DNA from: Nocardia ninae NBRC 108245
GTDB lineage: Bacteria > Actinomycetota > Actinomycetes > Mycobacteriales > Mycobacteriaceae
DNA: 64,000 nt
Assembly (NCBI RefSeq): GCF_007990755.1
Contig: NZ_BJXA01000012.1
Location: 96,171-160,170 of the forward strand
Direction of reading: 5' to 3'
Position numbers and translations under genes: made by a program. A model generated the notes under the pieces. The model did no database searches, had not been told where the DNA came from, and worked only from the letters and a program-made list of their open reading frames with translations. This document shows positions 681 through 12,356 of this stretch, in pieces; position 1 is the first letter of the stretch, and each line of letters starts with the position of its first letter.

Positions 681-698
681 TTTCGGTGGCCGCCGAAA
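681..698. promoter_or_regulatory. 18-bp near-perfect palindrome, candidate ArsR operator
   Basis: TTTCGGTGGCCGCCGAAA lies in the gap between the divergent P450-like and ArsR genes. Only the pair at the fourth position in from the centre is mismatched. Position and symmetry fit a dimeric winged-helix repressor acting on both genes. It also argues that the ArsR start is downstream of the GTG at 686, which would fall inside the site. Confidence 0.45.
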
Positions 699-718
699 CG
701 TTCGCGCACCATCATGGG

Positions 719-1546
719 GTGGTGTCATCCAGAGGAGCCGAACTGGCAGGTCTCGCCGCGTTGCTCGCCGACCGCACCCGCGCCGACATGTGTCTCGCCT
801 TGGTCGACGGCCGCGCCTGGACCGCAGGTGAGCTCGCCCGTCACGCCGGAGTGGCCGCGTCCACCGCGACCGAACACCTCAATCGTCTCCTCGCGGGCGG
901 GCTGCTCATCGAACGCCGCCAAGGCAGGCATCGCTACGTCCAATTGGCGGGACCGCAGGTCGCCGACCTACTGGAGTCCATGGTCACCCACCTGGACCCA
1001 CCCCGTCCGACGGTGACCAATCTCCGAACCGCCACTGCCGCAGCAGCTTTGGCAAACGGTCGCACCTGCTACGACCACCTGGCCGGACGCTTGGGCGTCG
1101 CCATCACCGATGCCATGTCCACCCAGGCCTTCCTCGATCAGGACAACGGTTTCGCCCTCACCGAAGCCGGTCTCACCTGGCTGACCGGCCCGCTCGGCAT
1201 CGACCCCGCCACCCTGCACGCCACCCGCCGCCCCCTCGCCCGCCCCTGCCTCGACTGGACCGAACGCCGCACCCACCTGGGCGGCGCCGCAGGCGCCCAC
1301 CTCTGCCGCCGCCTCCACGAACTCCACTGGATCACCCGAATCGGCACCGGCCGCGCCATCCGCCTCACCCCGAAAGGCGAATCCGCCCTGCAAACTTCGC
1401 TGGCCCTCGACCTTTCCGCCCTGCAACCCCCTACACCGCATCCCGCAACTGCCGCAGCCGATAAGCCACCCGCGAAACAACCCCCGCCAACATCCTGGCC
1501 CCCGACTCCAACCGCTCCAGCAACTCCACCAACTCATCCTCGGTAG
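719..1546 (+). CDS. ArsR/SmtB-family transcriptional regulator
   Basis: Residues about 5-85 form an ArsR-type winged helix: LADRTRADMCLALVDGRAW, then helix-turn-helix WTAGELARHAGVAASTATEHL and a wing (IERRQGRHRYVQL). No cysteine cluster for metal sensing is obvious. The C-terminal half is an extended domain seen in larger actinobacterial ArsR regulators. The start is uncertain: GTG 686 is also in frame, but it lies in the palindrome, so GTG 719 or 722 is preferred; no Shine-Dalgarno sequence is visible. The last 40 or so residues are almost all Pro, Ala and Thr and are encoded opposite the DUF222 fragment, with a 116-base tail-to-tail overlap, so the original stop was probably lost. It likely regulates itself and the divergent P450. 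Confidence 0.75.
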   Translation: MVSSRGAELAGLAALLADRTRADMCLALVDGRAWTAGELARHAGVAASTATEHLNRLLAGGLLIERRQGRHRYVQLAGPQVADLLESMVTHLDPPRPTVTNLRTATAAAALANGRTCYDHLAGRLGVAITDAMSTQAFLDQDNGFALTEAGLTWLTGPLGIDPATLHATRRPLARPCLDWTERRTHLGGAAGAHLCRRLHELHWITRIGTGRAIRLTPKGESALQTSLALDLSALQPPTPHPATAAADKPPAKQPPPTSWPPTPTAPATPPTHPR

Positions 1547-1631
1547 CCCGCGAAACATCCACCCCCCGCACCCCAGCCACCGCACCCTCCAGCGCCCTGA
1601 CCTGCTCCTCAAAGGATTCGTTCGAACGCAT
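1431..1631 (-). pseudogene. 13E12/DUF222-type HNH endonuclease, 5' fragment
   Basis: A 66-residue ORF beginning MRSNESFEEQVRALEG and continuing ELVELLERLE...R.LAGV matches the first 60 or so residues of actinobacterial REP13E12/DUF222 proteins, which normally exceed 400 residues and end in an HNH nuclease domain. Here the frame stops at 66 residues and no HNH motif follows. A LexA-type SOS box overlaps the start codon, as in mycobacterial 13E12 genes (established knowledge). I read it as a relic of a repeat-family gene rather than a functional nuclease; a free-standing small protein cannot be excluded. Confidence 0.55.
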
Positions 1632-1637
1632 GTTCTA
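1622..1637 (-). promoter_or_regulatory. LexA (SOS) box over the DUF222 start codon
   Basis: TCGAACGCATGTTCTA matches the actinobacterial LexA consensus TCGAAC-N4-GTTCGA with one mismatch. The DUF222 start codon, read on the minus strand, falls in the 4-base spacer, so LexA would block initiation directly. Confidence 0.6.
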
Positions 1638-1828
1638 ATGATAGCAGTTCTGGTCCACAGCACGTGCTCGTCGCGAACGCTGCGACGAAGCAGGCCCGTA
1701 CGCCCCACACCCTGATGACCACGTCTGGTGGCAATCTCTATCCGGGCGCAGAACGCGCGGACCGGACTCGGGATGTCCGCACCCAGCACATCGCATCCAA
1801 CGCAGCATTCTCAGGAGGTCGGTCCGGC

Positions 1829-2821
1829 TCAGTGGGCGTGGATGCCGATGAAGGACAACAGGATTTCGGCGGATCGGGTGGGATTCTCGACCTGGGGTGA
1901 GTGGCCGACGCCCGGCACGGTCACCACCGTCGCGTCGGGAACGGTGCGATATTCGGCGGTGGAGGTGGAGCAGCGCCACCGGCGGTCTTGTTCACCGAAG
2001 ATCACCAGCAGGGGTTTGCCCAGGACGGTCAGCCGGTCCGGAAGGGCGCGCTGGTTCAGATAGTCGCGACTGGCCGCCGAGGTCGCGGTGAGGGCATGAT
2101 GGGTCATGCCACGCAAGTCGCCGACGAACTGTTGCGGGATCGGGTAGCTGTCGGTGGCGAACGCACTGCTCAGAGCCTGGCGGAGGAGGTCGTCGGTGCG
2201 TAACTGCCACATCGCTTCCCCGAGGACCGGAGTCGTGAGCAGCCGGCCGGCGGGACTTTCGGAAGTATCGGCACCGAGGGTGGGGCCGGTGTCGACGAGC
2301 ACCAGCGCGGTCACCAGGTCGGGGCGTTGCTCGGCGAGCGAGGTGGCCACCGCGCCTCCGGTGGAGTGGCCGACCGCGATCGCGTGCCGGACACCGAGCT
2401 GGTCCAGTGCTCCGGCGACCCGCTTGCCTTGCTCCGGGATCGAGTAGCCGGCGCCGTCGGGTTTGTCCGAGCTGCCGTGCCCGAGCAGGTCGAGGCGGAT
2501 AACGTGGTAGGAGTCGGCCAGCAGCGGCACCAGCCGGTCCCACCAGTGGGTGGATGCGCCGAGCCCATGGATCAAGACCAGGGCAGGGCCGCCGCCGAGG
2601 CCGTCCTGGCTGACATGGATGTTCTGACCGTCGATGGTGAGTGTCGATTCGACGGTGGCCGCGGCGCTGTGGTGAGCGGTCACCACCGAGTTTCCCAGCA
2701 GCAGCACGACAATCGCGCTGACGATGGCCACAGCGAGGAGGCGGTGCTTGCGGCGTTTTCCCGCGCGCCGCTGGTCCAGCCGGGTTCCGTGCGAATGGTT
2801 GTCGATTACGGGTGAAGTCAC
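1829..2821 (-). CDS. Membrane-anchored or exported alpha/beta hydrolase
   Basis: About 330 residues. After a basic N-terminal stretch (RRAGKRRKHR) comes one hydrophobic segment (LLAVAIVSAIVVLLLGNSVV), then an alpha/beta-hydrolase fold: oxyanion motif HGLGAS, nucleophile elbow GHSTGG, acid in FGEQDRRW and catalytic His in GVGHSPQ. The arrangement suggests an uncleaved anchor or signal peptide with the enzyme outside the membrane. The GTG at 2821 follows a purine-rich agtgaggg; longer in-frame versions reaching 3238 overlap the divergent AraC gene and are unlikely. The substrate could be an ester, lactone or epoxide and is not determinable. It is head-to-head with the AraC regulator, which may control it. 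Confidence 0.85.
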   Translation of the reverse strand: MTSPVIDNHSHGTRLDQRRAGKRRKHRLLAVAIVSAIVVLLLGNSVVTAHHSAAATVESTLTIDGQNIHVSQDGLGGGPALVLIHGLGASTHWWDRLVPLLADSYHVIRLDLLGHGSSDKPDGAGYSIPEQGKRVAGALDQLGVRHAIAVGHSTGGAVATSLAEQRPDLVTALVLVDTGPTLGADTSESPAGRLLTTPVLGEAMWQLRTDDLLRQALSSAFATDSYPIPQQFVGDLRGMTHHALTATSAASRDYLNQRALPDRLTVLGKPLLVIFGEQDRRWRCSTSTAEYRTVPDATVVTVPGVGHSPQVENPTRSAEILLSFIGIHAH

Positions 2822-2884
2822 GCCCTCACTGTCGCCGCCGGTGGGGACCGATGGCTTGAACAAATGTTCCCCGACCTCCAGCAT

Positions 2885-3763
2885 ATGAGGGTGCGCTTCA
2901 CTGGGCCGGAACCTGTCTGGGATGTCGTTTGTCCGCCCCGGCCGAGCCGGATACCCGGTGTCCGCATGGCTGGATTCCGCGATCATGGTGCGAAACCTGT
3001 TGACCAGCGGGCGCTTCCGCATCCTGCCGTGACAATGCTGCTGGAGTTCGGCGCGCGTTCGCCGGTCGTGGACGACGCCGCCGGACAGTGTCGGGGCAGT
3101 CTCGCCGCCGGTCTGGGAACCAGTACGCGACGCGTACGCGGCGAGCAGATCGAATGCGTGCAAGTGCGGTTGTCGCCGCTGATCGCGGGCGCCGTGCTGA
3201 GCGCCTCCCCCGCCGAATTGACCGACGCCGTTGTGCATCTGGACGACCTATGGGGCCAGGAGGCGGCACGGATCCGCGAGCAGCTGGCCGAGACCCCTTC
3301 GTGGACAGAGCGTTTCGCTCTCATCGAGGTGTTGCTGGCTCGCCGCTGCGTGGCCGAACCTTCGGCCGAGCCGGAAGTGATCTGGGCCTGGCGGCGTATT
3401 CGGGCCGGGCGCGGTTTGGTCCGGATCGATGGCCTGGCCGACGAGGTCGGTTGGAGCCGCAAACGCCTGTGGTCCCGGTTCCGAGCGCAATTCGGTGTGC
3501 CGCCCAAGCGGGCGGCGACACTGGTCCGCTTCGACCGTGCCGTCCACGGACTCGCCGCCGGTGCCGACCCGGCCCGGGTTGCCGCCGACAACGGCTACGC
3601 TGACCAATCCCACCTGCACCGCGATATCGTCGCGTTCACCGGCGTGACGCCGGCGGCCGTGGCCGGCGAATCCTGGCTGGCTGTCGACGACATCGCCTGG
3701 CCCGGTACCAGCCGTCGTGCCGCTAGCCCTGCCTTCGACGAATCGACCCGGCCACCGGGCTGA
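2885..3763 (+). CDS. AraC-family transcriptional regulator
   Basis: 292 residues. The C-terminal 100 residues hold two helix-turn-helix units (RIDGLADEVGWSRKRLWSRFR and RVAADNGYADQSHLHRDIVAFTG), and the second is the conserved AraC signature. The N-terminal 180 residues resemble the small-molecule sensing half of actinobacterial DUF6597-type AraC proteins (inference). ATG 2885 (MRVRFTGPEP) is preferred to a GTG/ATG at 2864 because the similarity seems to start there; the ribosome site is weak. It is divergent from the alpha/beta hydrolase, 63 bases apart, so mutual regulation is plausible. Confidence 0.85.
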   Translation: MRVRFTGPEPVWDVVCPPRPSRIPGVRMAGFRDHGAKPVDQRALPHPAVTMLLEFGARSPVVDDAAGQCRGSLAAGLGTSTRRVRGEQIECVQVRLSPLIAGAVLSASPAELTDAVVHLDDLWGQEAARIREQLAETPSWTERFALIEVLLARRCVAEPSAEPEVIWAWRRIRAGRGLVRIDGLADEVGWSRKRLWSRFRAQFGVPPKRAATLVRFDRAVHGLAAGADPARVAADNGYADQSHLHRDIVAFTGVTPAAVAGESWLAVDDIAWPGTSRRAASPAFDESTRPPG

Positions 3764-3808
3764 CGCAAGACACAGTTTTCTGCGCCCGACTACGGCCGAC
3801 GAGTGTCG

Positions 3809-4243
3809 TCAGTGGAGTTCCTCGACCAACCCGATGATGATGCCCTCGGGCCCGCGGACATATCCGTAGCGGAGCATGTCTTCGTAACGGGCTACCGTGC
3901 CCACGAGTTCGCCACCGTGGGCGCGCAGGCGGTCGATGACGTCGTCGATGTCGTCGGTCACGAACGTCAGGCGGGGGATGCCAAGGGTGTTCACTGGTGC
4001 CTTTGGCGCGGGGTTGGTGGCGGGCGAACGGAACGTCGAAAGTTCCACCCGGCCATGGCCATCCGGCGTTCGGACGACGGCCATGTCTGCTTGCACGCCG
4101 TCCAGCCCGAGCAGGTCGTCGGCCCATTGACCACCGACTGTCGCTTCGCCCTCCAGTTCCAGGCCCAGTTCTATGAAGAACGCGACAGCAGCCGCGAGGT
4201 CCTCGACCACAATGCCGACGTGATCCATCCGGCGGATCGTCAT
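3809..4243 (-). CDS. VOC-superfamily (glyoxalase/bleomycin-resistance-like) protein
   Basis: 144 residues with two beta-alpha-beta-beta-beta modules: MDHVGIVVEDLAAAVAFF at the N-terminus and PRLTFVTDDIDDVIDRL at about residue 90. Candidate metal ligands are His8, the E in GRVELSTF and the terminal Glu near VEELH. The family includes glyoxalase I, dioxygenases and antibiotic-binding proteins; specific activity unknown. The start is fixed by gaggagaac 7 bases before ATG 4243. It stands alone on this strand. Confidence 0.85.
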   Translation of the reverse strand: MTIRRMDHVGIVVEDLAAAVAFFIELGLELEGEATVGGQWADDLLGLDGVQADMAVVRTPDGHGRVELSTFRSPATNPAPKAPVNTLGIPRLTFVTDDIDDVIDRLRAHGGELVGTVARYEDMLRYGYVRGPEGIIIGLVEELH

Positions 4244-4511
4244 AATGTTCTCCTCAGGTTCGTTGCGCGGCCCGTTCGGCTGCTCGTGCCCCTGGGACGG
4301 AGCCGCCCGAGCGTTCTCGACATCCACGGCGCATGAGTTTCCCAATCTATTTGGACCGGGTTGTGCAGCGGCACGACCGTGCAGCAGCGGGAACTCGGGC
4401 TCCAGCCATCTAGCCCCCGAAACCAGGGGCAAGATGCGGATCTCGATGACCGATAGCATCGGTGCCACGCACTGCGCCAACTCAATTGACGGTGCGCCAG
4501 AGGGGAATTCG

Positions 4512-4607
4512 ATGCCAGAAGAAACACTTCGGGCAGACGACGAAGCTGTGCAGGCCGACCTCCTGGGTTCCGCGGCGCAGGTCAATCGCGAATTCGATCG
4601 CCGATGA
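4512..4607 (+). CDS. Possible 31-residue small protein upstream of the ESX-like cassette
   Basis: ATG 4512 is preceded by agagggg at a good distance and opens an acidic, charged ORF (MPEETLRADDEAVQ...). Its TGA overlaps the ATG of the next small ORF as ATGA. It could be translated as the first member of a coupled chain leading to the WXG-type genes. No family recognised. Short open frames ending in ATGA are common by chance at this GC content, so support is modest. Confidence 0.3.
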   Translation: MPEETLRADDEAVQADLLGSAAQVNREFDRR

Positions 4608-4753
4608 CAACCTCAGCAGCCGTAGTAGACGGCGCAGACTGCAATTTCCGGCAACCCTCGGCTGACCACGACGCCGGTGACACGATGGCGGTCCACGCGA
4701 TGCGCAAGATCCTCAGAGCAATCGGATTCAGGGATAGAGGTCACGAACTGTGA
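4604..4753 (+). CDS. Possible 49-residue small protein directly upstream of the ESX-like gene
   Basis: ATG 4604 overlaps the stop of the preceding 31-residue ORF, and its TGA at 4751-4753 overlaps the GTG start of the ESX-like gene at 4750 (GTGA). The product begins MTTSAAVVDGADCNF and ends in a basic stretch (AMRKILRAIGFRDRGHEL). With overlaps at both ends it looks like part of one translational unit. No homologue recognised, no signal peptide. Chance cannot be excluded. Confidence 0.35.
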   Translation: MTTSAAVVDGADCNFRQPSADHDAGDTMAVHAMRKILRAIGFRDRGHEL

Positions 4754-5034
4754 GCGGGTTCGAGGTTGAGATCAGTCAGCTGAAAGAGGCGGCCAAAGCG
4801 GCGGGATCCGCCGCGACCCAGGCCAGGGCGGTGGACCCGGGTAACGGCTTGACCGGGCTCGCGGCGGCATTGCCGGGTGGGGAGGCGGCGAAGAAGGCGC
4901 CGACGTTGGTGACGACGTTCAATGACCGCGCGAAGGGCTGGGCAGACGAGATCGGCGGCTGGGGCGATTTGGTGACCGCGGCCGCGAAGTTGTACGCCGA
5001 GAACGAGGTCGAGGCGGAAAGGGCTTTCGGATAA
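4750..5034 (+). CDS. WXG100/ESX-like small secreted protein with YxxxE signal
   Basis: 94 residues, predicted as two helices around GWADEIGGWGDL. The C-terminus reads LYAENEVEAERAFG, which contains YxxxE, the general type VII secretion signal (YxxxD/E). Length and helix-turn-helix layout match ESX proteins, though the turn is not a strict WXG. Start GTG 4750 has gaggt upstream. The stop overlaps the next ATG (TAATG), so the two are translated together and probably secreted as a heterodimer, with this protein supplying the signal. No ESX core machinery (EccC, EccD and so on) is in the window. Confidence 0.8.
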   Translation: MSGFEVEISQLKEAAKAAGSAATQARAVDPGNGLTGLAAALPGGEAAKKAPTLVTTFNDRAKGWADEIGGWGDLVTAAAKLYAENEVEAERAFG

Positions 5035-6431
5035 TGGCCGTCGGCTATCACGACGTCCGAAAGTGGGACTCGCAGGCGCTCGATACGTCGGCCACCAACT
5101 TGCGTGGGCGGCGGGACAAACTCATCGGGCTGCAGGACGAACTCGACGACGCCAGGAGATTGCCCCAGTGGCACGGTCCCGCGAGCGAGCGCGCACGCGG
5201 TTCGCTGGGTACCACGCGGAACAACGCCGAAATCTTGATCGCGGAGCTGTCCGCGGTCGACCGCGCCATGCAGAACGCATCGGACGACGTGTCCGCCCTG
5301 AAAACCCGGGTCGCCAATAACGACGCCCTCGCCGACACTTACCAGTTCGGCATCGCCGCCGATGGCGCGATCGTGGACAACAAGCCCCCGGACCCGCCGC
5401 CGAAGTCGCGATTCGAGGCCGAAGACCGCGCGGAGAGCGCACGGCATCGCGAAACCATCAGGGCGCAGCTGGAAAAGGAAACCAAGGCGATACTCACCAC
5501 GGCGAAGAACATCGACACCGCCGTTGCCCTGGTGCTGCAACTCGCGCAGGACCGCAAGATCAGCGACCACGGCGCGACCACCCTCGACGGCGCCAGAAAA
5601 GGCGGGGAGATCGACGCCAACGTGGCCGAGATGGAGCAGGCACTGCGCGACGCCGGGCTGCTGACCGGTCCGCCGGTGACCGGTTATTACCGGCAGTGGC
5701 TCGAGAACGCCGTGCGCCGGGGCGTATCGATCGACACGATCAAGCAGATGGTCTCCGAACACAAGATCACGCCGGAGGATTTCAAGATCCTGGATCGAAT
5801 GGAAGAGATCCGCGAGGACGAGGACGGCGACGGGATCTTCAAGTCGTACTTCCTGATGCCGAACAACATGAGCGGGGACGACGCCGCCAAGGCGGTGCGG
5901 ATGACCTACATCTTGAACGCGGGCACCGACTACGGCACCGAAGGCGAGAAAACCGACTTCGCACCGACCCCATACGGATCTGCGGAACTACGCCGAATCA
6001 CCGAGCGGCAACGGGACAACTCCTGGAGCTACAACGACGATGTGGGATTCGTGCACGGCAACGGTGGACGTTTGGTGACCACGCCGAACGGCATGATGAT
6101 GGGTTTGGGCGGGAACCTCGTTCAGGACCAGTTCAGCCAAAACGGCGGAACGACCTGGGGCGATACGTTCATGCTGAACGTCGACGACTCGAAAGATCCG
6201 GCGCAACAGCTTCGAGAGGTCGCGAGGTCGGGTCACGCGTGGTACGAAAACGACAACGGTCCGTACCGGGGCAAACTCGACCTGGACCGCTTTTTGCACC
6301 ACGAGGAGCGTCACTCTCAGCAGTGGGCCGAGGAAGGTTATGCCGGCTTCCTCGCGTCCTACGCGTGGGAGCAAGTCACCGGCGGCAACGAGACCGAGGA
6401 AGAAGCGGGGCTTTCCGATGGCGGTTATTAG
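5034..6431 (+). CDS. WXG-type secreted protein with C-terminal HExxH metallopeptidase-like domain
   Basis: 465 residues. The first 100 or so form a helical hairpin with a WHG turn (residues 47-49) followed by long helices, the layout of WXG/LXG effectors. A charged linker (about 130-200) leads to a C-terminal domain. Residues 423-427 are HEERH (HExxH, zinc ligands plus catalytic Glu), followed by SQQWAEEGYAGF and a terminal NETEEEAGLSDGGY that could give the third ligand. The protein ends 38 residues after HExxH, so it is a minimal zincin-like tail. It has no Sec signal peptide; export would be with the ESX-like partner. Protease, toxin or wall-modifying activity is inference. Confidence 0.75.
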   Translation: MAVGYHDVRKWDSQALDTSATNLRGRRDKLIGLQDELDDARRLPQWHGPASERARGSLGTTRNNAEILIAELSAVDRAMQNASDDVSALKTRVANNDALADTYQFGIAADGAIVDNKPPDPPPKSRFEAEDRAESARHRETIRAQLEKETKAILTTAKNIDTAVALVLQLAQDRKISDHGATTLDGARKGGEIDANVAEMEQALRDAGLLTGPPVTGYYRQWLENAVRRGVSIDTIKQMVSEHKITPEDFKILDRMEEIREDEDGDGIFKSYFLMPNNMSGDDAAKAVRMTYILNAGTDYGTEGEKTDFAPTPYGSAELRRITERQRDNSWSYNDDVGFVHGNGGRLVTTPNGMMMGLGGNLVQDQFSQNGGTTWGDTFMLNVDDSKDPAQQLREVARSGHAWYENDNGPYRGKLDLDRFLHHEERHSQQWAEEGYAGFLASYAWEQVTGGNETEEEAGLSDGGY

Positions 6432-6972
6432 GTGGCCGCGGGTCGCCTGCGCTGCCGTGTTCGTGGCGGCGGTGACCGGGGCGTGCGACAGCCAAGCGCA
6501 GTTCGCGCCGTCGCTGCCGCCTGCGGCCGGGTTCCGCGTCGACGACGGTGTCCTGAAACTGTGGACGGGCACTCCGTGCGAGGGCGTCACCGGCCTGACG
6601 TTGATCTTCGACTCCGGCACCTCGGAGAGCACGGACCAGGTGTGGACCGCGCCGCGGCCGGGGGTGCCGGTGGAGCGCATGGACCTGCTGCGGACCGCCA
6701 AGGGATCCGCTCCCGACACCGGCGGACCTCTCCAGGTCCAGAAATCGCTGCCCGCAGACTACGACTGGACCAAGGCGGGTTCGCTCTCCTTCTCCGTTGA
6801 CGGCCCGGAGGCGTACGGTGCCAGGGCCGACGTCGCTCGAGTCTTGCGCGAGTCGGCCCAGCACCCGTCCGGGAGTTACCTTTTCGGCGAGCGCGGTTGG
6901 CTGGACGCGTCGGAGGTCCAGCGCGAGAATCGGAAATCGTTCCTGACCGTCTGCACTCCCGACCCGAAGTAG
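6418..6972 (+). CDS. Lipoprotein of the ESX-like cassette
   Basis: 184 residues starting inside the end of the upstream gene (14-base overlap). The signal peptide VACAAVFVAAVTGAC ends in a lipobox VTGA-Cys, so the mature protein is lipid-anchored on the outer face of the membrane. The rest has no recognised domain; a second cysteine pair (TPC... and TVCTP) could form a disulfide. Tight coupling to the putative metallopeptidase suggests a periplasm-side partner such as an immunity or tethering protein (inference). Confidence 0.75.
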   Translation: MAVIRWPRVACAAVFVAAVTGACDSQAQFAPSLPPAAGFRVDDGVLKLWTGTPCEGVTGLTLIFDSGTSESTDQVWTAPRPGVPVERMDLLRTAKGSAPDTGGPLQVQKSLPADYDWTKAGSLSFSVDGPEAYGARADVARVLRESAQHPSGSYLFGERGWLDASEVQRENRKSFLTVCTPDPK

Positions 6973-7003
6973 TTGCCGCACAATCGAACCTGCGGAGCAG
7001 AAG

Positions 7004-7258
7004 ATGGACACGCCGAACAGCACTCGCCGCACAAGCGCGCTGCGGACAACGGTGCGGCGTCTCGTCCTGGGCGCATTCGCCGGTACCGCCGTCTTGATCG
7101 TGCTGTTCGTCGCCGAGGTGGTGCTCAGCGTCACTGGAGTGTCCGCCGACCCGCACGGCTACGGAATGTTCGCCGGAATCCTGTTCACGGCGATCCTGAC
7201 ACCGGTCGCGTTGGCACTGTGGCTGCTGTACCGATCGATGCGCCGACGCTGGAACTGA
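7004..7258 (+). CDS. Small two-span membrane protein
   Basis: 84 residues with two hydrophobic segments (about 22-45 and 55-77) and basic ends (RTTVRRL, RSMRRRWN), giving a hairpin with both termini in the cytoplasm by the positive-inside rule. It follows the lipoprotein gene by 31 bases on the same strand and is likely the last gene of the cassette. ATG 7004 follows ggagcagaag. No family recognised. Confidence 0.65.
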   Translation: MDTPNSTRRTSALRTTVRRLVLGAFAGTAVLIVLFVAEVVLSVTGVSADPHGYGMFAGILFTAILTPVALALWLLYRSMRRRWN

Positions 7259-7416
7259 CAAACCCGATACAGCACCGCGCGCCGCAGCACGAGCATGCCT
7301 CCGCTCTTCGCTGCGGCTACGCATCCCAGGGCGATTCGCCGCGATAGCAGGTTTTCGGAAGCGTGCGGGTGCATCGGGCTGTGACGATCGCCAGACGTCG
7401 ATCCGAGGAGAAAATC

Positions 7417-7827
7417 ATGCGACGACATGTCGGGCTGGCCTTGTTGGCCGCCGCGGGGTTGCTCAATACCGCACCTGCTGTCGGTGTGGTCGCACCGCAG
7501 GGGATGTACGCCGCCTATGGCATTGCTCCGGCCGGGCGCGATCTCGAGGTGGTGCTGCGACATCGGGCCGTGCTGTTCGCCGTCCTCGGGGTCGGGTTGC
7601 TGGTGGCAATCTTTCGTCCCGCGCTGCGGCCGATCGCGGTGCGCGCCAATGCGATCAGCATGGGTAGCTTTCTCGTCCTGGTGATCGCCGGGGGTCCGGT
7701 CGGCCCGGGATTGGTACGCGTGGCGGCCGTCGACGTCGCAGGATTGGCGGCGCTCGGCGTCGGCGTCGCGCTGCTGCGGGGTGAGCGTGCGGTCGAGCAG
7801 GGGCGCTTGGTTGGGGGAAGGGGATGA
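7417..7827 (+). CDS. Four-span membrane protein
   Basis: 136 residues with about four transmembrane helices (MRRHVGLALLAAAGLLNTAPAVG; AVLFAVLGVGLLVAIF; ISMGSFLVLVIAGG; VAGLAALGVGVALL). The start at ATG 7417 is set by gaggag 7 bases upstream. Its stop overlaps the next gene (ATGA), so it forms a pair with the DUF4345 protein. It resembles small uncharacterised actinobacterial membrane proteins; function unknown. Confidence 0.75.
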   Translation: MRRHVGLALLAAAGLLNTAPAVGVVAPQGMYAAYGIAPAGRDLEVVLRHRAVLFAVLGVGLLVAIFRPALRPIAVRANAISMGSFLVLVIAGGPVGPGLVRVAAVDVAGLAALGVGVALLRGERAVEQGRLVGGRG

Positions 7828-8189
7828 GAACCGTTGTGCTGTGCCTTGTCGGTGTGCTGTTCGCGGGGATGGGAACGTACGCGCTGGCCGCCCCTGCTGC
7901 GCTGGCGCGGCCGTTCGGGTTGTCGGTGCCAACGGCGGTGAGCCGCGCAGAGATTCGCGCGGTGTACGGCGGTTTCGGTCTGGCCGTCGCAGGCATGCTG
8001 TGGTGGTCGGCGTTCGGTGCCGGTGAACTGCGGACCGGGGCGGCGCTGACAGTCGGGTTCGCGTTGGCCGGGATGGCGGGCGGCCGCATCATCTCGCGGC
8101 TGATCGACAGCGGGGTGCGTTTCTATCCGATCTGGTTCTACTGCTTGGTTGAACTCGTCGGCGCGGCACTGGTGCTCGGTGTCGCCTGA
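7824..8189 (+). CDS. DUF4345-type membrane protein
   Basis: 121 residues, four predicted helices, with a motif of the DUF4345 family in the middle (RAVYGGFGLAVAGMLWW) and GGRIISRLIDSG later. ATG overlaps the previous stop by 4 bases. Function unknown; members often sit beside regulators, and an AraC gene follows 27 bases downstream. Confidence 0.8.
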   Translation: MRTVVLCLVGVLFAGMGTYALAAPAALARPFGLSVPTAVSRAEIRAVYGGFGLAVAGMLWWSAFGAGELRTGAALTVGFALAGMAGGRIISRLIDSGVRFYPIWFYCLVELVGAALVLGVA

Positions 8190-8216
8190 CATGCCGTTCA
8201 CGATCTGTCTACTGCA

Positions 8217-9032
8217 ATGATCACGACTATGACGGTCGACTCGGGCAACCGCCGCGTGGGCGAGCGCACGCTGTGGCTCTGGCAGGGCCAGGCGGCGTAC
8301 CTTGGCCTGTCGTTCCAGCTCGACACCCATTCGACGCCGGTGCAGTGCTTCGTACTCGGTGTGGACGAGAAGATCACCGTCCGCACCCCGGATGGTGGAC
8401 GGTGGCAGCGGCGCAGCGTGCTGATTCCGGCGCGCACGGCCCATAAACTCGAATCCAGCGGACGGGTGCTGTTTTACTATCTCGATCCTCGCTCGGCGGC
8501 CGCTGCCCGTTTACGAGCGTCGATGCGAGAGCCGACAATACCCGTCGCGACGGGACACCGGGACGAGGCGGCACTGACCGCCCATCTGAATCAGCCCGGC
8601 CAGCCAGATCCCCGGGAACTGCGCCGGATCATCGCCGGCCCTGAGACACCAGCGACGATCGACGAACGGATCCGAGCGGTAATGAACACGATAGTCAACG
8701 ATCCCGCTGGGCGAACCACCGCCGCGGAGCTGGCCGCCGACCTCGGCATCTCCACTTCCCGTTTCCTGCACCTGTTTTCGGCCAACGCCGGCACCAGCTT
8801 GCGGCGCTATCGCTTGTGGGCCCGCCTGTTGTCGGTCGCAGGCGCCGTCGCCGACGGCATCGACCTGACCCGCGCCGCAGCCGACGCGGGATTCGCTTCG
8901 GCCAGCCATTTCAGCGACACCTTCCGAACTTTGTTCGGCCTCACCGCGACCGAAGTACTCGCCCAGGGCATGAACATCGTCCTGGTCCCGGACACGGAGC
9001 GGACACCGACGGCGGCGCGTCTGCGTCGTTGA
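8217..9032 (+). CDS. AraC-family transcriptional regulator
   Basis: About 271 residues. The N-terminal 100 residues look like a cupin sensor (CFVLGVDEKITVRTPDG...VLIPARTAHKL). The C-terminal domain has two helix-turn-helix units, TAAELAADLGISTSRFLHLFSANAG and TRAAADAGFASASHFSDTFRTLFG, the AraC signature. Two in-frame starts, ATG 8217 and ATG 8229. It follows the two membrane proteins on the same strand and may report on or regulate them; effector unknown. Confidence 0.85.
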   Translation: MITTMTVDSGNRRVGERTLWLWQGQAAYLGLSFQLDTHSTPVQCFVLGVDEKITVRTPDGGRWQRRSVLIPARTAHKLESSGRVLFYYLDPRSAAAARLRASMREPTIPVATGHRDEAALTAHLNQPGQPDPRELRRIIAGPETPATIDERIRAVMNTIVNDPAGRTTAAELAADLGISTSRFLHLFSANAGTSLRRYRLWARLLSVAGAVADGIDLTRAAADAGFASASHFSDTFRTLFGLTATEVLAQGMNIVLVPDTERTPTAARLRR

Positions 9033-9183
9033 CGCAGACGTGTCCCCAGTACCCAGCAACGTCGCCGATGGTGTTTGGTTTGCACTACTTCCTTTGAACT
9101 ACACCGCTTCACGGAGGCTGCAGGCGTGGGCGGTTACCGCCGGCGCGAGTTGCCGGGCCTTTCGAATGATGGAGATCCACGCT

Positions 9184-9777
9184 GTGCCTTCGCCCACCGA
9201 CGATGAACCGAACGAGGCACTCCCGCAAGAGATGTCAGTGGAACCTGATGTACCACCAGCGGTTGAGCAGCGATCACGGTGGCGGATCGCCCGCCGCCCT
9301 CTCTACCTACTACTGGGATTGGCCTTCATCGTCCCGGGCGGGATCCTGTTCGTCGCACGCGACGCCGACTCGGAGCAACCGCGCCCGCAGTACAGCAAAT
9401 TCGCCTCGGGAACCTTCACCTACGGCGTCGGCACCCACTGGGGAGTACAGCACTTCGGTGTCGATATCGAAGGTGAGATCGGCACTCCGATCCTGGCCGT
9501 TGCCGACGGCACCGTGCTCGAGGCGGGCCCGGCCGCCGGATTCGGTATGTGGGTGCGGCTGTTGCACGACGACGGCACTGTCACCATTTACGGCCACATC
9601 GACACCGCAACGGTATCGGCGGAGCAACGGGTGCTGGCCGGCGAGCAGATCGCGACTCTCGGCAAGAGAGGATTCACTACCACCCCGCATTGTCATTTCG
9701 AGGTTTGGCTGGATGGTGAGCACAAGGTGGACCCACTGCCGTGGCTGGCCACCCGTGGTATCAGCCTCGTACCCTGA
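9184..9777 (+). CDS. M23-family peptidase (LytM-type), membrane-anchored
   Basis: About 197 residues. One transmembrane segment (LYLLLGLAFIVPGGILFVA, about residues 40-58) places the rest outside. The peptidase domain shows the zinc ligands of M23: HFGVDI (HxxxD), then YGHID and HCHFEVW (HxH). This family cuts peptidoglycan crosslinks or activates other hydrolases. GTG 9184 has ggag 9 bases before it; ATG 9166 or 9169 in frame are alternatives. It stands alone, facing the HEAT-repeat gene. Confidence 0.85.
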   Translation: MPSPTDDEPNEALPQEMSVEPDVPPAVEQRSRWRIARRPLYLLLGLAFIVPGGILFVARDADSEQPRPQYSKFASGTFTYGVGTHWGVQHFGVDIEGEIGTPILAVADGTVLEAGPAAGFGMWVRLLHDDGTVTIYGHIDTATVSAEQRVLAGEQIATLGKRGFTTTPHCHFEVWLDGEHKVDPLPWLATRGISLVP

Positions 9778-9815
9778 CGAGACCGCGCCCGGCGGCCGAA
9801 AGATACAGCCGTATC

Positions 9816-10619
9816 TCAGGATTCGCGAGCCGCGATCGCGGCTTGGATCCGGCGTAGTGTGCGGAGACCTTTCTTCGCGGCGACGCTCACCATGCCGTCG
9901 AAGACCGTTGCACCGCGATCGTTGGCCATCAACCTTTCCAGCGTCGGCACGGCACGATCGTCGCCGGTCGAACCGAGCGCGACGGCGGCCCAGTAGCGCT
10001 GGTCCGGGTCGTCGCTGTCGGCCGCCTCGCACAGTCTCGGGATGATGTCCGGTGCGAATTTGGCGAGCGCGCTGGCGATATAGCCGATGCGGTAGTACCG
10101 GCGGTTGTCGAATTCGTCCCACAGCGCGGCGAGGGCCGCCTCGCCGCCGATCAGGCCGAGGGCTTCGGCGGCACGTTCGCGCATTCCGGCGATCGGGTCC
10201 CGCAGCACGGGGGTGAGCGCCGGGACGACGGATTCGTCACCGAGCGTGCCCAGTGCGATCACCGCCTGCTCTCGCGCCATTTCCTGGGGGTGATCCAGCA
10301 TCGCGACCAAGCCGGGAACTGCCTCACGGAAGCCGAGTGCCGCGCAACCCATCGCCGCCCACGCCTGGCAGTTGTACTGAGTGTCGGCGAGCGACGCCAG
10401 CAGCGGTTCTCGCAGCGTGTCGTCGCCGAAGATCGCCGCCAGGTTCAACGCCCGGGTGTACAGCGACCGGTGGTAGTCGGAATAGTCGCGGACGAGCGCG
10501 CGTAGTGCTTCCTGGGCGGAGGCGTCGCCATCAGCAGCCTGATCGAGCAGGAGCCGCAAATTGTCCACGCGGGTCTCCAGAGCACCGTCTTTGAGGCTTC
10601 GCGCATCAGCTGGATTCAC
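9816..10619 (-). CDS. HEAT-repeat (PBS-lyase-like) protein
   Basis: 267 residues, mostly tandem helical repeats of about 30 residues. Clear examples are QAVIALGTLGDESVVPALTPVL, RAAEALGLIGGEAALAALWDEF and WAAVALGSTGDDRAVPTLERLM. This is the E-Z/PBS-lyase HEAT pattern, used as a protein-binding scaffold rather than a lyase in non-photosynthetic bacteria. No catalytic residues, no signal peptide. Cytoplasmic adaptor role is inference. Confidence 0.8.
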   Translation of the reverse strand: MNPADARSLKDGALETRVDNLRLLLDQAADGDASAQEALRALVRDYSDYHRSLYTRALNLAAIFGDDTLREPLLASLADTQYNCQAWAAMGCAALGFREAVPGLVAMLDHPQEMAREQAVIALGTLGDESVVPALTPVLRDPIAGMRERAAEALGLIGGEAALAALWDEFDNRRYYRIGYIASALAKFAPDIIPRLCEAADSDDPDQRYWAAVALGSTGDDRAVPTLERLMANDRGATVFDGMVSVAAKKGLRTLRRIQAAIAARES

Positions 10620-10685
10620 CGCCCAACGGTACCTGGCGCTGATCTCGCCCTCCGGCCGCCTCAGCTGGGCCTTACCATTGACGAG

Positions 10686-11846
10686 TTACCGCTTGGTGCG
10701 TTGTCCGGCCCGGGCCGCGATGGCCTTGGCGAGCGGCCATTGGGCGCCGATGGCGGTCAATTCGGTGACCTCGCCGAGCAGGCTGTCGGCGGCGGGGAGC
10801 GCGAAGTAGCGGCTACCGGACGGAGGGTTGCCGTGCGCCTTGGCATCTCGGGCGCGAACGAGCAGGACGGCGCGGTCCAGTGCGTCGTAGGCGGGGCCGG
10901 CCGGGGCGGCTCGGGAGATCGCCGTCACGATGTCGGGCGGGTGCGGTGTCGCGTAGCGGCCCAGGTCCAGAATGCTGTCGCGGATCTCGATGACGGTGCG
11001 GTGCAGGAGATATCGGTTGGGCTGAGCCCCGTCCGGTACGGGGCTGTGGTGCACGATCTCCGGGCAGGCGGCGGTCAGCTCGGACCAGAGGGGCCGCAGC
11101 GCTTTTCGGTGGCGCGTCAGATCGTCTACGCCCATTCGGTTGACTATGGCGATCAACGTCAGCCCCATGCACAGCACGAGATCGAAAAAGACTCCGTTGC
11201 GATCGATTTCGGCCTGGACGGCGATGAAAGCATTGTGCTGCCCGGTGATCCGGAAGGCAGACGCCACCATGGTGGCGCTGATGCGTCCGAGCACCGCGAC
11301 GCCCGTGAGGAGTGTCGCCACGTACATCGCCGCTTCGCCGCGACCGACTCGGTTGCGGAGTTCGGCACCGGCAGCCTGGATGACGAGGACCGCCATCGCG
11401 ACACCGATCGGCGCCGTGCACAGCCAATATCCGAACTGTGCCCATCCGGTGCGTTCGAAGATCGTGCCGTTGCCACCGCCGAACGTGCTGAAACACAGTG
11501 CCGCGACACTGAATACGGCGGCCAGCCCGTAGCTGACGCGCGGCGAGCGAAAGCGATACAGCAGCGCCGCACCGATCAGCAGCCCGGCCGCATAGCCGAC
11601 ATTGAAACCGATCGCCCCGAGTTCGAGGATCAGCTCTTCGGAGAGCCAACCGCCGGAGAGCTCGGTGATGAGGCGGCGCACCGTCGGTTCCCGGGTTGTC
11701 GCCGTGGCGACCACACAGCCGAAGGCGATGGTGACGTGCCGGTCGAGCTCGGTGTTGAGCAAGCCGACGAGGCGACCGGCCAGCAACAGGCAGGCGGCGA
11801 TCACGGTGGGCAGCGTTACCGCTGTCGGTAGCGTCGAGGTCAACAT
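10686..11846 (-). CDS. MAB_1171c/DUF6545-type multi-span membrane protein
   Basis: 386 residues: about seven transmembrane helices in the first 230, then a cytoplasmic C-terminal domain of about 150 residues (LRPLWSELTAACPEIVHH... to the end). This matches the actinobacterial family annotated as MAB_1171c putative transporters with a DUF6545 tail. It starts 3 bases after the stop of the ImmA/IrrE-type gene, so the two are one unit; this pairing recurs in nocardiae and mycobacteria (family knowledge). Transport substrate is not known. Confidence 0.75.
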   Translation of the reverse strand: MLTSTLPTAVTLPTVIAACLLLAGRLVGLLNTELDRHVTIAFGCVVATATTREPTVRRLITELSGGWLSEELILELGAIGFNVGYAAGLLIGAALLYRFRSPRVSYGLAAVFSVAALCFSTFGGGNGTIFERTGWAQFGYWLCTAPIGVAMAVLVIQAAGAELRNRVGRGEAAMYVATLLTGVAVLGRISATMVASAFRITGQHNAFIAVQAEIDRNGVFFDLVLCMGLTLIAIVNRMGVDDLTRHRKALRPLWSELTAACPEIVHHSPVPDGAQPNRYLLHRTVIEIRDSILDLGRYATPHPPDIVTAISRAAPAGPAYDALDRAVLLVRARDAKAHGNPPSGSRYFALPAADSLLGEVTELTAIGAQWPLAKAIAARAGQRTKR

Positions 11847-11849
11847 CGC

Positions 11850-12356
11850 TCAGCGCTGAAAGACCAAGCGGCCGAGCACCGAACGTGGTCGCTGAACCTC
11901 GAGGTCGACGTCGGACATGAGCATCGAGGCGAACAGCTCGGCCTGGTTCTCGTCGACATCGTCGTAATTGCTGCGGGCCAGCACGCGCAGCACGCTGTCG
12001 ATGTCCAGGTCGGGGAACAGTGCTGCGAGCGTGCGGCGCTGCGCGCCCGGCGAAACGAATCCGGCGTGGTCGAGCAACAAATGAGCGATCTCGTGCATCA
12101 CGATGTGGTCGGTGTGATATCCGGTGCTGGCCGCGTCGTAGGCGATGACGATGTCGTCGGCGCGTTCCACGACGAGCCCGCACGGAAACCCACCCGTGGT
12201 CAGATCCTGTTGCGGAACAATCAAAATCGGCTTACCGACCCGTTCGGCCACGTGCGCGACGAAGGTCGCCAGATCCCACGGCCGCGGCACCTCGAGCGAA
12301 ATCGCCAGCTGTCGGATTCGTTCGACCGCGGGGTCGACACCGGCGCGTCGGAACAT
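11850..12356 (-). CDS. ImmA/IrrE-type metallopeptidase-like protein
   Basis: 168 residues. HEIAH (HExxH, about residues 88-92) and a downstream ENQAELFAS give the zinc-binding signature of the ImmA/IrrE group, whose members cleave repressors (ImmA cuts ImmR; IrrE controls the DdrO regulon). No helix-turn-helix is fused to it and no XRE regulator lies next to it. The downstream partner is the seven-span membrane protein, so a membrane signal relayed by proteolysis is a plausible model (inference). Confidence 0.8.
   Translation of the reverse strand: MFRRAGVDPAVERIRQLAISLEVPRPWDLATFVAHVAERVGKPILIVPQQDLTTGGFPCGLVVERADDIVIAYDAASTGYHTDHIVMHEIAHLLLDHAGFVSPGAQRRTLAALFPDLDIDSVLRVLARSNYDDVDENQAELFASMLMSDVDLEVQRPRSVLGRLVFQR

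Follow-up and report, generated by a model that had tools for sequence, protein, structure and literature searches.

The stretch of DNA analysed here (the window) comprises 64,000 nt of the genome of Nocardia ninae NBRC 108245 (contig NZ_BJXA01000012.1, positions 96,171 to 160,170) and contains, at 4750-7258, a cassette of four tightly packed genes encoding a small protein related to ESX (type VII secretion) substrates, a 465-residue protein with an HExxH motif near its C-terminus, a lipoprotein and a small membrane protein. As discussed below, sequence comparisons and structure models suggest that the cassette probably encodes an ESX-secreted polymorphic toxin with a zincin-type tip and an extracytoplasmic immunity lipoprotein. 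The initial annotation, made from the sequence alone, had described four genes in this arrangement, and reading of the open reading frames and motif positions agreed with it in sizes, overlaps and motifs. The features of the cassette are the following.

4750..5034, + strand: small ESX-like gene, GTG start, 94 residues; putative secretion partner of the 465-residue protein.
4993..5007, + strand: YxxxE (YAENE), type VII export signal motif, residues 82-86 of the 94-residue protein.
5034..6431, + strand: gene for the 465-residue protein, ATG start, sharing one base with the preceding stop codon.
5034..5603, + strand: N-terminal helical secretion module (head), residues 1-190, with WHG at 46-48.
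5604..6431, + strand: C-terminal effector module (tip), residues 191-465, last residues DGGY.
6300..6314, + strand: HEERH at residues 423-427, on helix 417-449 of the model; its two His are predicted zinc ligands and its first Glu the predicted catalytic residue.
6396..6398, + strand: Glu455, candidate third zinc ligand, 11th residue from the end, in helix 453-458 of the model.
6418..6972, + strand: lipoprotein gene, 184 residues, overlapping the gene for the 465-residue protein by 14 bases; proposed immunity protein.
7004..7258, + strand: membrane protein gene, 84 residues, two hydrophobic stretches by eye; putative accessory.

The contig that carries the cassette, C12, is part of a 9.7 Mb assembly. 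EccD, the core gene searched for, was found over the cut-off in three genes, one on contig C16 and two on C32, and in none on C12. ESX machinery is therefore present, and the earlier statement that the cassette lies far from any ESX core genes is borne out in the present draft assembly.

Relatives were collected by a family-level search of 301 genomes of the window's family and as named loci (L numbers), the best 80 of 176 matches. Together with a Georgenia plasmid and the window, the named loci form a set of 82 rows, 27 of which carry a standalone tip, that is, one with no secretion head as judged by eye from the reading frames. A first alignment held 16 rows found by whole-protein similarity, three of which recur among the named loci; the tip alignment held 59 rows (58 named loci and the window) and the lipoprotein alignment 21. 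L020, a match with an internal stop, was left out of the alignments.

Judged from its motif, its conservation and a structure model, the tip is very probably a zincin-type enzyme. The extended motif HExxHxxQW was present in 79 of the 80 named relatives, a count that is biased upward since one of the two search patterns behind these loci contained the HExxH motif, and a closing ExxAGxxDGGY was found in all 80, at most six residues from the end. HExxH, QW, a later Glu and DGGY were invariant in 16/16 rows of the first alignment, and Glu455 in 59/59 rows of the tip alignment; TPNG, GGN and WGD are further invariant or near-invariant tip positions. An AlphaFold model of the 465-residue protein (predicted local distance difference test, pLDDT, 89.4; predicted template modelling score, pTM, 0.85) ends in strands 401-406 and 409-416, a helix at 417-449 with HEERH near its start, and helices 453-458 and 460-463. 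The zinc site proposed in the initial annotation was thus supported in part: HEERH at 423-427 lies inside a helix of the model, the motif is retained in orthologues, and the possible third ligand expected within the last 15 residues has a candidate in Glu455, predicted to lie on a helix that follows the HEERH helix.

No Pfam or NCBIfam family reached its cut-off over the tip, and no PHROGs or PADLOC family matched it at an expectation value (E) of 0.1 or below. The profile of the tip, searched against the sequences of solved structures, retrieved two designed TIM-barrels (E 0.0006 and 0.003) and an M48 peptidase (E 0.64); that of the full-length protein gave five matches at E 0.13-3.2, none of them named as a peptidase. 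Three candidate assignments were rejected. A PG_binding_1 match at residues 195-229, which if taken as real would fit a target on the wall side, was below threshold (E 0.0013, 19.3 of 23 bits) and was missing in all eight relatives scanned. The 465-residue protein had no match to Tox-MPTase4 (PF15640), for which three members of the small family described below scored 11.6-12.9 bits (cut-off 25; E 0.1-0.27); a survey of 296 genomes from the phylum for this family returned nothing and was uninformative, the controls being equally silent. Comparison by hhalign with a profile of eight segments of the extracellular contractile injection system (eCIS) family eCIS_core (PF13699), from which the partial match L182 was left out, gave a probability of about 2% (E 0.02-0.03).

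Matches to the tip profile were found in 109 of the 301 family genomes, 17 spanning the tip entirely or for the most part and 92 confined to a part near its C-terminal end. The partial matches were read in nine of the 92 and in one genome of another family, and each was a small protein without the upstream part (L138-L147, RHEAVHADQWAR...AGLxDGGY). With L146 left out of its profile, this small zincin-like family aligned with the tip core at an hhalign probability of 98.9% (E 3e-17). HExxHxxQWA, the later Glu and AGLxDGGY are common to both, and the upstream TPNG part is missing in the small family; this minimal shared core with the motif strengthens the zincin assignment. Three members scanned reached no Pfam or NCBIfam cut-off. 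In six of the 10 fetched loci two kinds of gene recur near the small-family gene: a LytR_CpsA_Psr gene, a label checked with Pfam at two loci, and an AMP-binding-like gene, which scored below cut-off at the two loci where it was scanned.

The 301-genome search divided the 465-residue protein in two, since the proteins matched from about residue 190 on have N-termini that differ or are missing. Residues 1-190, which the AlphaFold model builds as long helices (13-31, 48-102 and 126-172), resemble heads found on further large proteins, with 25-35% identity. The head was not filed under WXG100 by profile, as scores were below the Pfam cut-off both for the 465-residue protein (E 0.82) and for some proteins with related heads (E 0.00014-0.007); the WHG turn and long helices are present. 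A Pfam scan of tips covered 18 entries from the family-level and an order-level search, one of them a small-family protein; among the 17 head-bearing proteins, Abhydrolase_8 was over cut-off in seven, and TPR_23, PLDc_2 and DUF6973 in one each. The last of these, L157:1501-2706, joins a related head to DUF6973 (E 9.6e-21) and also has an HExxH beyond residue 150. Conversely, the tip is borne by N-termini that fall into mutually unmatched clusters of 29, 12, 4, 3 and 2 members and single cases (phmmer, E 1e-6), where over-joining is possible because the stretches compared may include a few tip residues, as perhaps for L084 in the cluster of 12. Both scanned members of the 12-member cluster have an EspA/EspE (PF18879) head. 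One tip on different heads, and a related head with different tips, is the arrangement of polymorphic toxins. In Nocardia tenerifensis (L067) the tip, lipoprotein and membrane protein are present without an in-frame N-terminal module.

The small partner follows the head. A homologue of the 94-residue protein was found directly upstream of 29/29 large proteins with the window-type N-terminus and at none of the other 51 named loci. Where related heads carry other tips, the small partner was upstream in 25 of 37 cases, made up of 24/24 from an order-level search and 1/13 from the more distant family-level search. The YxxxE claimed for the 94-residue protein was located at residues 82-86, and YxxxD/E was present in all 31 homologues, 30 of them distinct (29 named loci, the window copy L009, and L010, which is on the same contig as L058). 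The 94-residue protein had no WXG100 match by Pfam profile. By inspection, other head types (L074, L070, L073 and L137) have a small upstream open reading frame of their own, with no Pfam match in the three scanned. These motifs and the analogy with known ESX pairs make export by ESX highly probable.

The lipoprotein follows the tip. Its homologues were detected with a profile grown from the window protein and run on all open reading frames of the loci, the single sequence alone having found 52/80 (E 1e-5). In the 82-row set it is present with 54 of the 55 secreted tip forms, the exception being L061, and with only one of the 27 standalone tips (L110). In all 53 named loci that have it, the lipoprotein domain starts on the same strand, 14-140 bases past the toxin stop (median 23). 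All 10 lipoprotein matches in the 301 family genomes (E 1e-5; six genomes, seven places) adjoin a tip. Related heads with other tips had the lipoprotein in 0/37 cases, where downstream DNA was short (nine of the 37 have at least 500 bases), and in 0/20 of those for which longer downstream DNA was taken. The lipoprotein therefore tracks the tip and not the secretion head, as expected of an immunity gene, and the contrast with the small partner argues that the small protein serves export while the lipoprotein belongs to the tip.

Further properties of the lipoprotein are consistent with this role. Cys23, Cys54 and Cys179 are invariant in 21/21 rows, suggesting a lipid anchor and perhaps a disulphide, both of which fit an extracytoplasmic place. 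Several lipoprotein domains occur in eight of 53 loci, as tandem genes (two in L074, three in L084, further copies in L077) or as two-domain lipoproteins (L075, L078, L079, L086 and L117). Linkage, multiple copies and lipoprotein nature together make it probable, with good confidence, that this is the immunity protein. Its model is mostly beta (pLDDT 85.9). The protein reached no Pfam or NCBIfam cut-off and no PHROGs family, a sub-threshold CBM_26 match being the only one, and its profile matched no solved-structure sequence. The TilA/DUF576 lipoprotein family was considered and rejected, there being no Pfam match for the 184-residue protein. The 84-residue membrane protein has homologues in 22/80 named loci.

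On the evidence of its sequence distribution, the cassette is a mobile, horizontally exchanged unit. The first 16 kb of the window was compared at the nucleotide level with ten of 30 relatives with the window-type head or its remnant, those compared coming from Nocardia, Amycolatopsis, Asanoa and Micromonospora. In nine, similarity was essentially confined to the cassette (4725-7259), and only L039 shared both flanks. The shared DNA begins at 4725-4748 (5692 in the headless L067) and ends at 6965-7259; L040 has one additional upstream match of 114 bases (4412-4524), and in L044, L059 and L063, three of the ten, the shared DNA stops ahead of the 84-residue gene. In the family-level search two genomes of the same genus have the cassette and at least 20 lack it. 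A 94 kb Georgenia plasmid (L137:5060-7796) has the same layout, with genes for 107, 464 and 188 residues followed by an RDD-family gene; the first three are annotated as hypothetical. GC content (65.4% vs 67.1%) gave no island signal and was discarded as a mark, and the tip matched none of 50,697 phage records, so that carriage by prophages was not indicated. The closest named relative among the best 80 of 176, from which the nearest records may be omitted, is in Nocardia suismassiliense (99% over the tip).

Carriers belong to the Nocardiaceae, Pseudonocardiaceae, Micromonosporaceae, Streptomycetaceae, Mycobacteriaceae, Nocardioidaceae and Bifidobacteriaceae, and their ways of life bear on a second explanation, that the cassette encodes an ESX effector against eukaryotes such as host cells or amoebae, with the lipoprotein serving self-protection or aiding export. 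Some carriers can infect people, for example Nocardia brasiliensis (L055 and L057), in keeping with such a role. Among the best 80 of 176, however, many are environmental, including the actinomycetes Amycolatopsis, Asanoa, Actinoplanes and Actinokineospora. Other systems employ zincin tips against eukaryotes, as the accessible sections of one survey describe (PMC3482391); yet a dedicated, tip-linked lipoprotein is what would be expected for a bacterial target, and a eukaryotic one is very improbable.

An ESX-secreted toxin with its immunity lipoprotein could work as follows. The 94-residue protein would pair with the helical N-terminus of the 465-residue protein, and its YxxxE tail would steer both proteins to an ESX machine of the cell. 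In the tip, zinc would be held by His423, His427 and Glu455, as sequence and model predict, with Glu424 as catalytic base. The tip would then hydrolyse a target, probably an envelope protein or peptide, beyond the cytoplasmic membrane of neighbouring actinobacteria, while the lipoprotein on the outer side of the cell membrane would block it and so shield the producer and its kin; the 84-residue membrane protein may be an optional accessory. Antibacterial use of the cassette seems probable, and a tip target outside the membrane somewhat less so, though still favoured. The absence of the lipoprotein beside standalone tips would fit an enzyme that is harmless in the cytoplasm and harmful outside it, a pattern that rests on one or two events. 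The secreted zinc enzyme with a membrane-anchored partner or immunity protein, put forward in the initial annotation, is thus in line with the comparative evidence (the predicted HEERH helix, the retained motif and the tip-linked lipoprotein).

Several observations weigh against this interpretation. As regards the enzyme, Foldseek found nothing for the full-length 465-residue model at E ≤ 0.001, helical proteins dominating the output, and in Mycobacterium pyrenivorans (L080:6001-6810) the motif reads HKERH, with the predicted catalytic Glu replaced by Lys. (L080 has lipoprotein and 84-residue-type membrane protein genes despite this change.) The lack of a fold match or of a family over cut-off, the loss of the Glu in L080 and the invariance or near-invariance of TPNG, GGN and WGD would suit a tip that is another enzyme or a binding domain, with HEERH as a structural motif and not a zinc site, which would be compatible with a toxin-immunity cassette. 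The small-family core, however, lacks the TPNG part but has retained HExxH, QW, the later Glu and AGLxDGGY, and the PVC-metallopeptidases are characterised by HExxHxxQ and a Glu on a subsequent helix, as given in the accessible sections of Zhang et al. 2012 (PMC3482391). That HEERH is no zinc site is accordingly unlikely.

As regards immunity, the lipoprotein fold had no Foldseek match at E ≤ 0.001, L061 has a toxin without a recognisable lipoprotein, and the small partner precedes just one of the 13 family-level proteins with a related head. On a tree of tips, the standalone forms make up essentially a single clade and one further row, so that the joint loss of head and lipoprotein amounts to one or two events and not 27. 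In distance correlations among 28 Nocardia-type loci the lipoprotein was tied to the tip no more closely than other parts were (r was 0.68 for tip and lipoprotein, 0.80 for tip and N-terminus and 0.75 for tip and partner), so that tip-immunity pairing was not separated from head-tip pairing. Of the four parts compared in these loci, the tip shows the highest conservation, at 81% mean identity, in which it differs from most polymorphic toxins, and no orphan lipoprotein was found in the 301 genomes at E 1e-5, orphan immunity genes being common in toxin-immunity systems of this sort. These last two points, together with the co-occurrence of toxin and lipoprotein in 54/55 secreted forms, would also fit a non-toxin, a secreted enzyme that remodels the producer's own envelope with the lipoprotein as docking protein, activator or substrate-presenting subunit. 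The LytR_CpsA_Psr gene near the small tip relative in six of 10 loci and the sub-threshold PG_binding_1 match, though absent from the eight relatives scanned, also point in that direction. Tandem genes (L074, L084) and two-domain lipoproteins, the same tip on different secretion heads, and a patchy, mobile spread within the genus speak for a toxin instead, and remodelling of the producer's own envelope is considered unlikely.

A secretion-less tip of about 250 residues was seen at 26 mycobacterial loci (L081, L087, L088, L090-L095, L097, L099-L101, L103-L111, L113, L115, L116 and L118), where the neighbours are alike at similar offsets. A PAP2/DAGK gene comes before the tip in 21 and a PMT_2-like gene after it in 24, labels for which one representative each was scanned, PMT_2 being just below cut-off. 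The shared neighbours suggest vertical inheritance of a domesticated form. On a tentative and rather doubtful extension of the toxin interpretation, the small zincin-like protein would be kin of the tip, the toxin tip would hit a protein of envelope assembly that lies beyond the membrane in other actinobacteria, and the secretion-less form, lacking the lipoprotein, would have been kept by mycobacteria at a constant chromosomal position. If this is true, a weapon and a housekeeping enzyme are of one family.

Around the cassette, nine of the 10 neighbouring open reading frames scanned (686-12356) belong to ordinary families, none of them phage-type, and one had no match. About 1.8 kb downstream (9040-9777, + strand) lies the gene of a Peptidase M23 protein that seems, by eye, to be anchored in the membrane at its N-terminus. 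Another HExxH (HEIAHLLLDHAG) occurs in a 168-residue protein (11850-12356, - strand) adjoining a DUF6545 gene; this protein looks like the ImmA/IrrE peptidases, its sole Pfam match, to CUE, being sub-threshold.

To our knowledge, bacterial warfare by the actinobacterial ESX systems (T7SSa, type VII secretion system a) is far less documented than that by the firmicute T7SSb. The occurrence of the cassette, with an immunity-type lipoprotein, in Nocardia, Amycolatopsis, Micromonosporaceae, mycobacteria and Nocardioidaceae makes an antibacterial role of T7SSa testable. Two families without a match over cut-off in Pfam or NCBIfam, or any match in PHROGs, are added as well, one of toxin tips and one of putative immunity proteins, and the cassette illustrates that a secretion partner can be distinguished from an immunity protein by the module it follows. 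A literature search by title and start of abstract, with most subscription papers and preprints beyond its reach, found no paper on the cassette among the matches listed. As far as the libraries and this search show, what is new are the families of the tip and of the lipoprotein, the many head types and bacterial families over which they are spread, and the tie to the small zincin-like proteins.

Known systems resemble the cassette in part, as far as the accessible sections of the papers cited describe them. The PVC-metallopeptidases and Tox-MPTase1-5 are likewise HExxH zincins in polymorphic toxins (PMC3482391); the non-significant eCIS_core comparison points to a likeness in layout to the former and not to membership, and the table rows for these families give no immunity family (PMC3482391). 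ESX-type proteins with an Abhydrolase_8 (DUF1023) domain have a related N-terminal module, and those from the order-level search are also preceded by a partner of the family seen here, but they carry an alpha/beta hydrolase tip and no such lipoprotein downstream.

The cassettes of phage-encoded ESX-secreted toxins (PEST) in Mycobacterium abscessus prophages encode a small WXG100 protein, a polymorphic toxin (about 50 kDa) whose N-terminus is WXG-like, and an immunity protein, and their heads and tips recombine (PMC10654092, PMC8092301). Several PEST immunity proteins are predicted lipoproteins (PMC8092301), and plasmids without the immunity genes of two cassettes transform M. smegmatis inefficiently (PMC10654092). 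The present cassette differs in being chromosomal, or plasmid-borne in Georgenia, with a tip unmatched in phage records and a tip and lipoprotein that reach no library cut-off; the string 'metallo' does not occur in the main text of the two PEST papers (PMC10654092, PMC8092301).

TslA/TilA of Staphylococcus aureus combines a type VII-secreted toxin acting outside the membrane with an immunity lipoprotein and small helical partners, but TslA, in which the order of domains is reversed, is a phospholipase, and TilA is a DUF576 lipoprotein (PMC10730906). TelC of Streptococcus intermedius, a type VII-secreted toxin that acts in the inner wall zone, is countered by the membrane-anchored, outward-facing TipC; TelC is set apart, by description only, as a lipid II phosphatase of Firmicutes (PMC6193138). 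Multiple immunity copies are reported in both systems, TilA homologues varying in number, with immunity paralogues (PMC10730906), and TipC having multiple paralogues (PMC6193138). TilA and TipC are precedents for immunity on the outer side of the cell membrane (PMC10730906, PMC6193138), the place proposed here for the lipoprotein.

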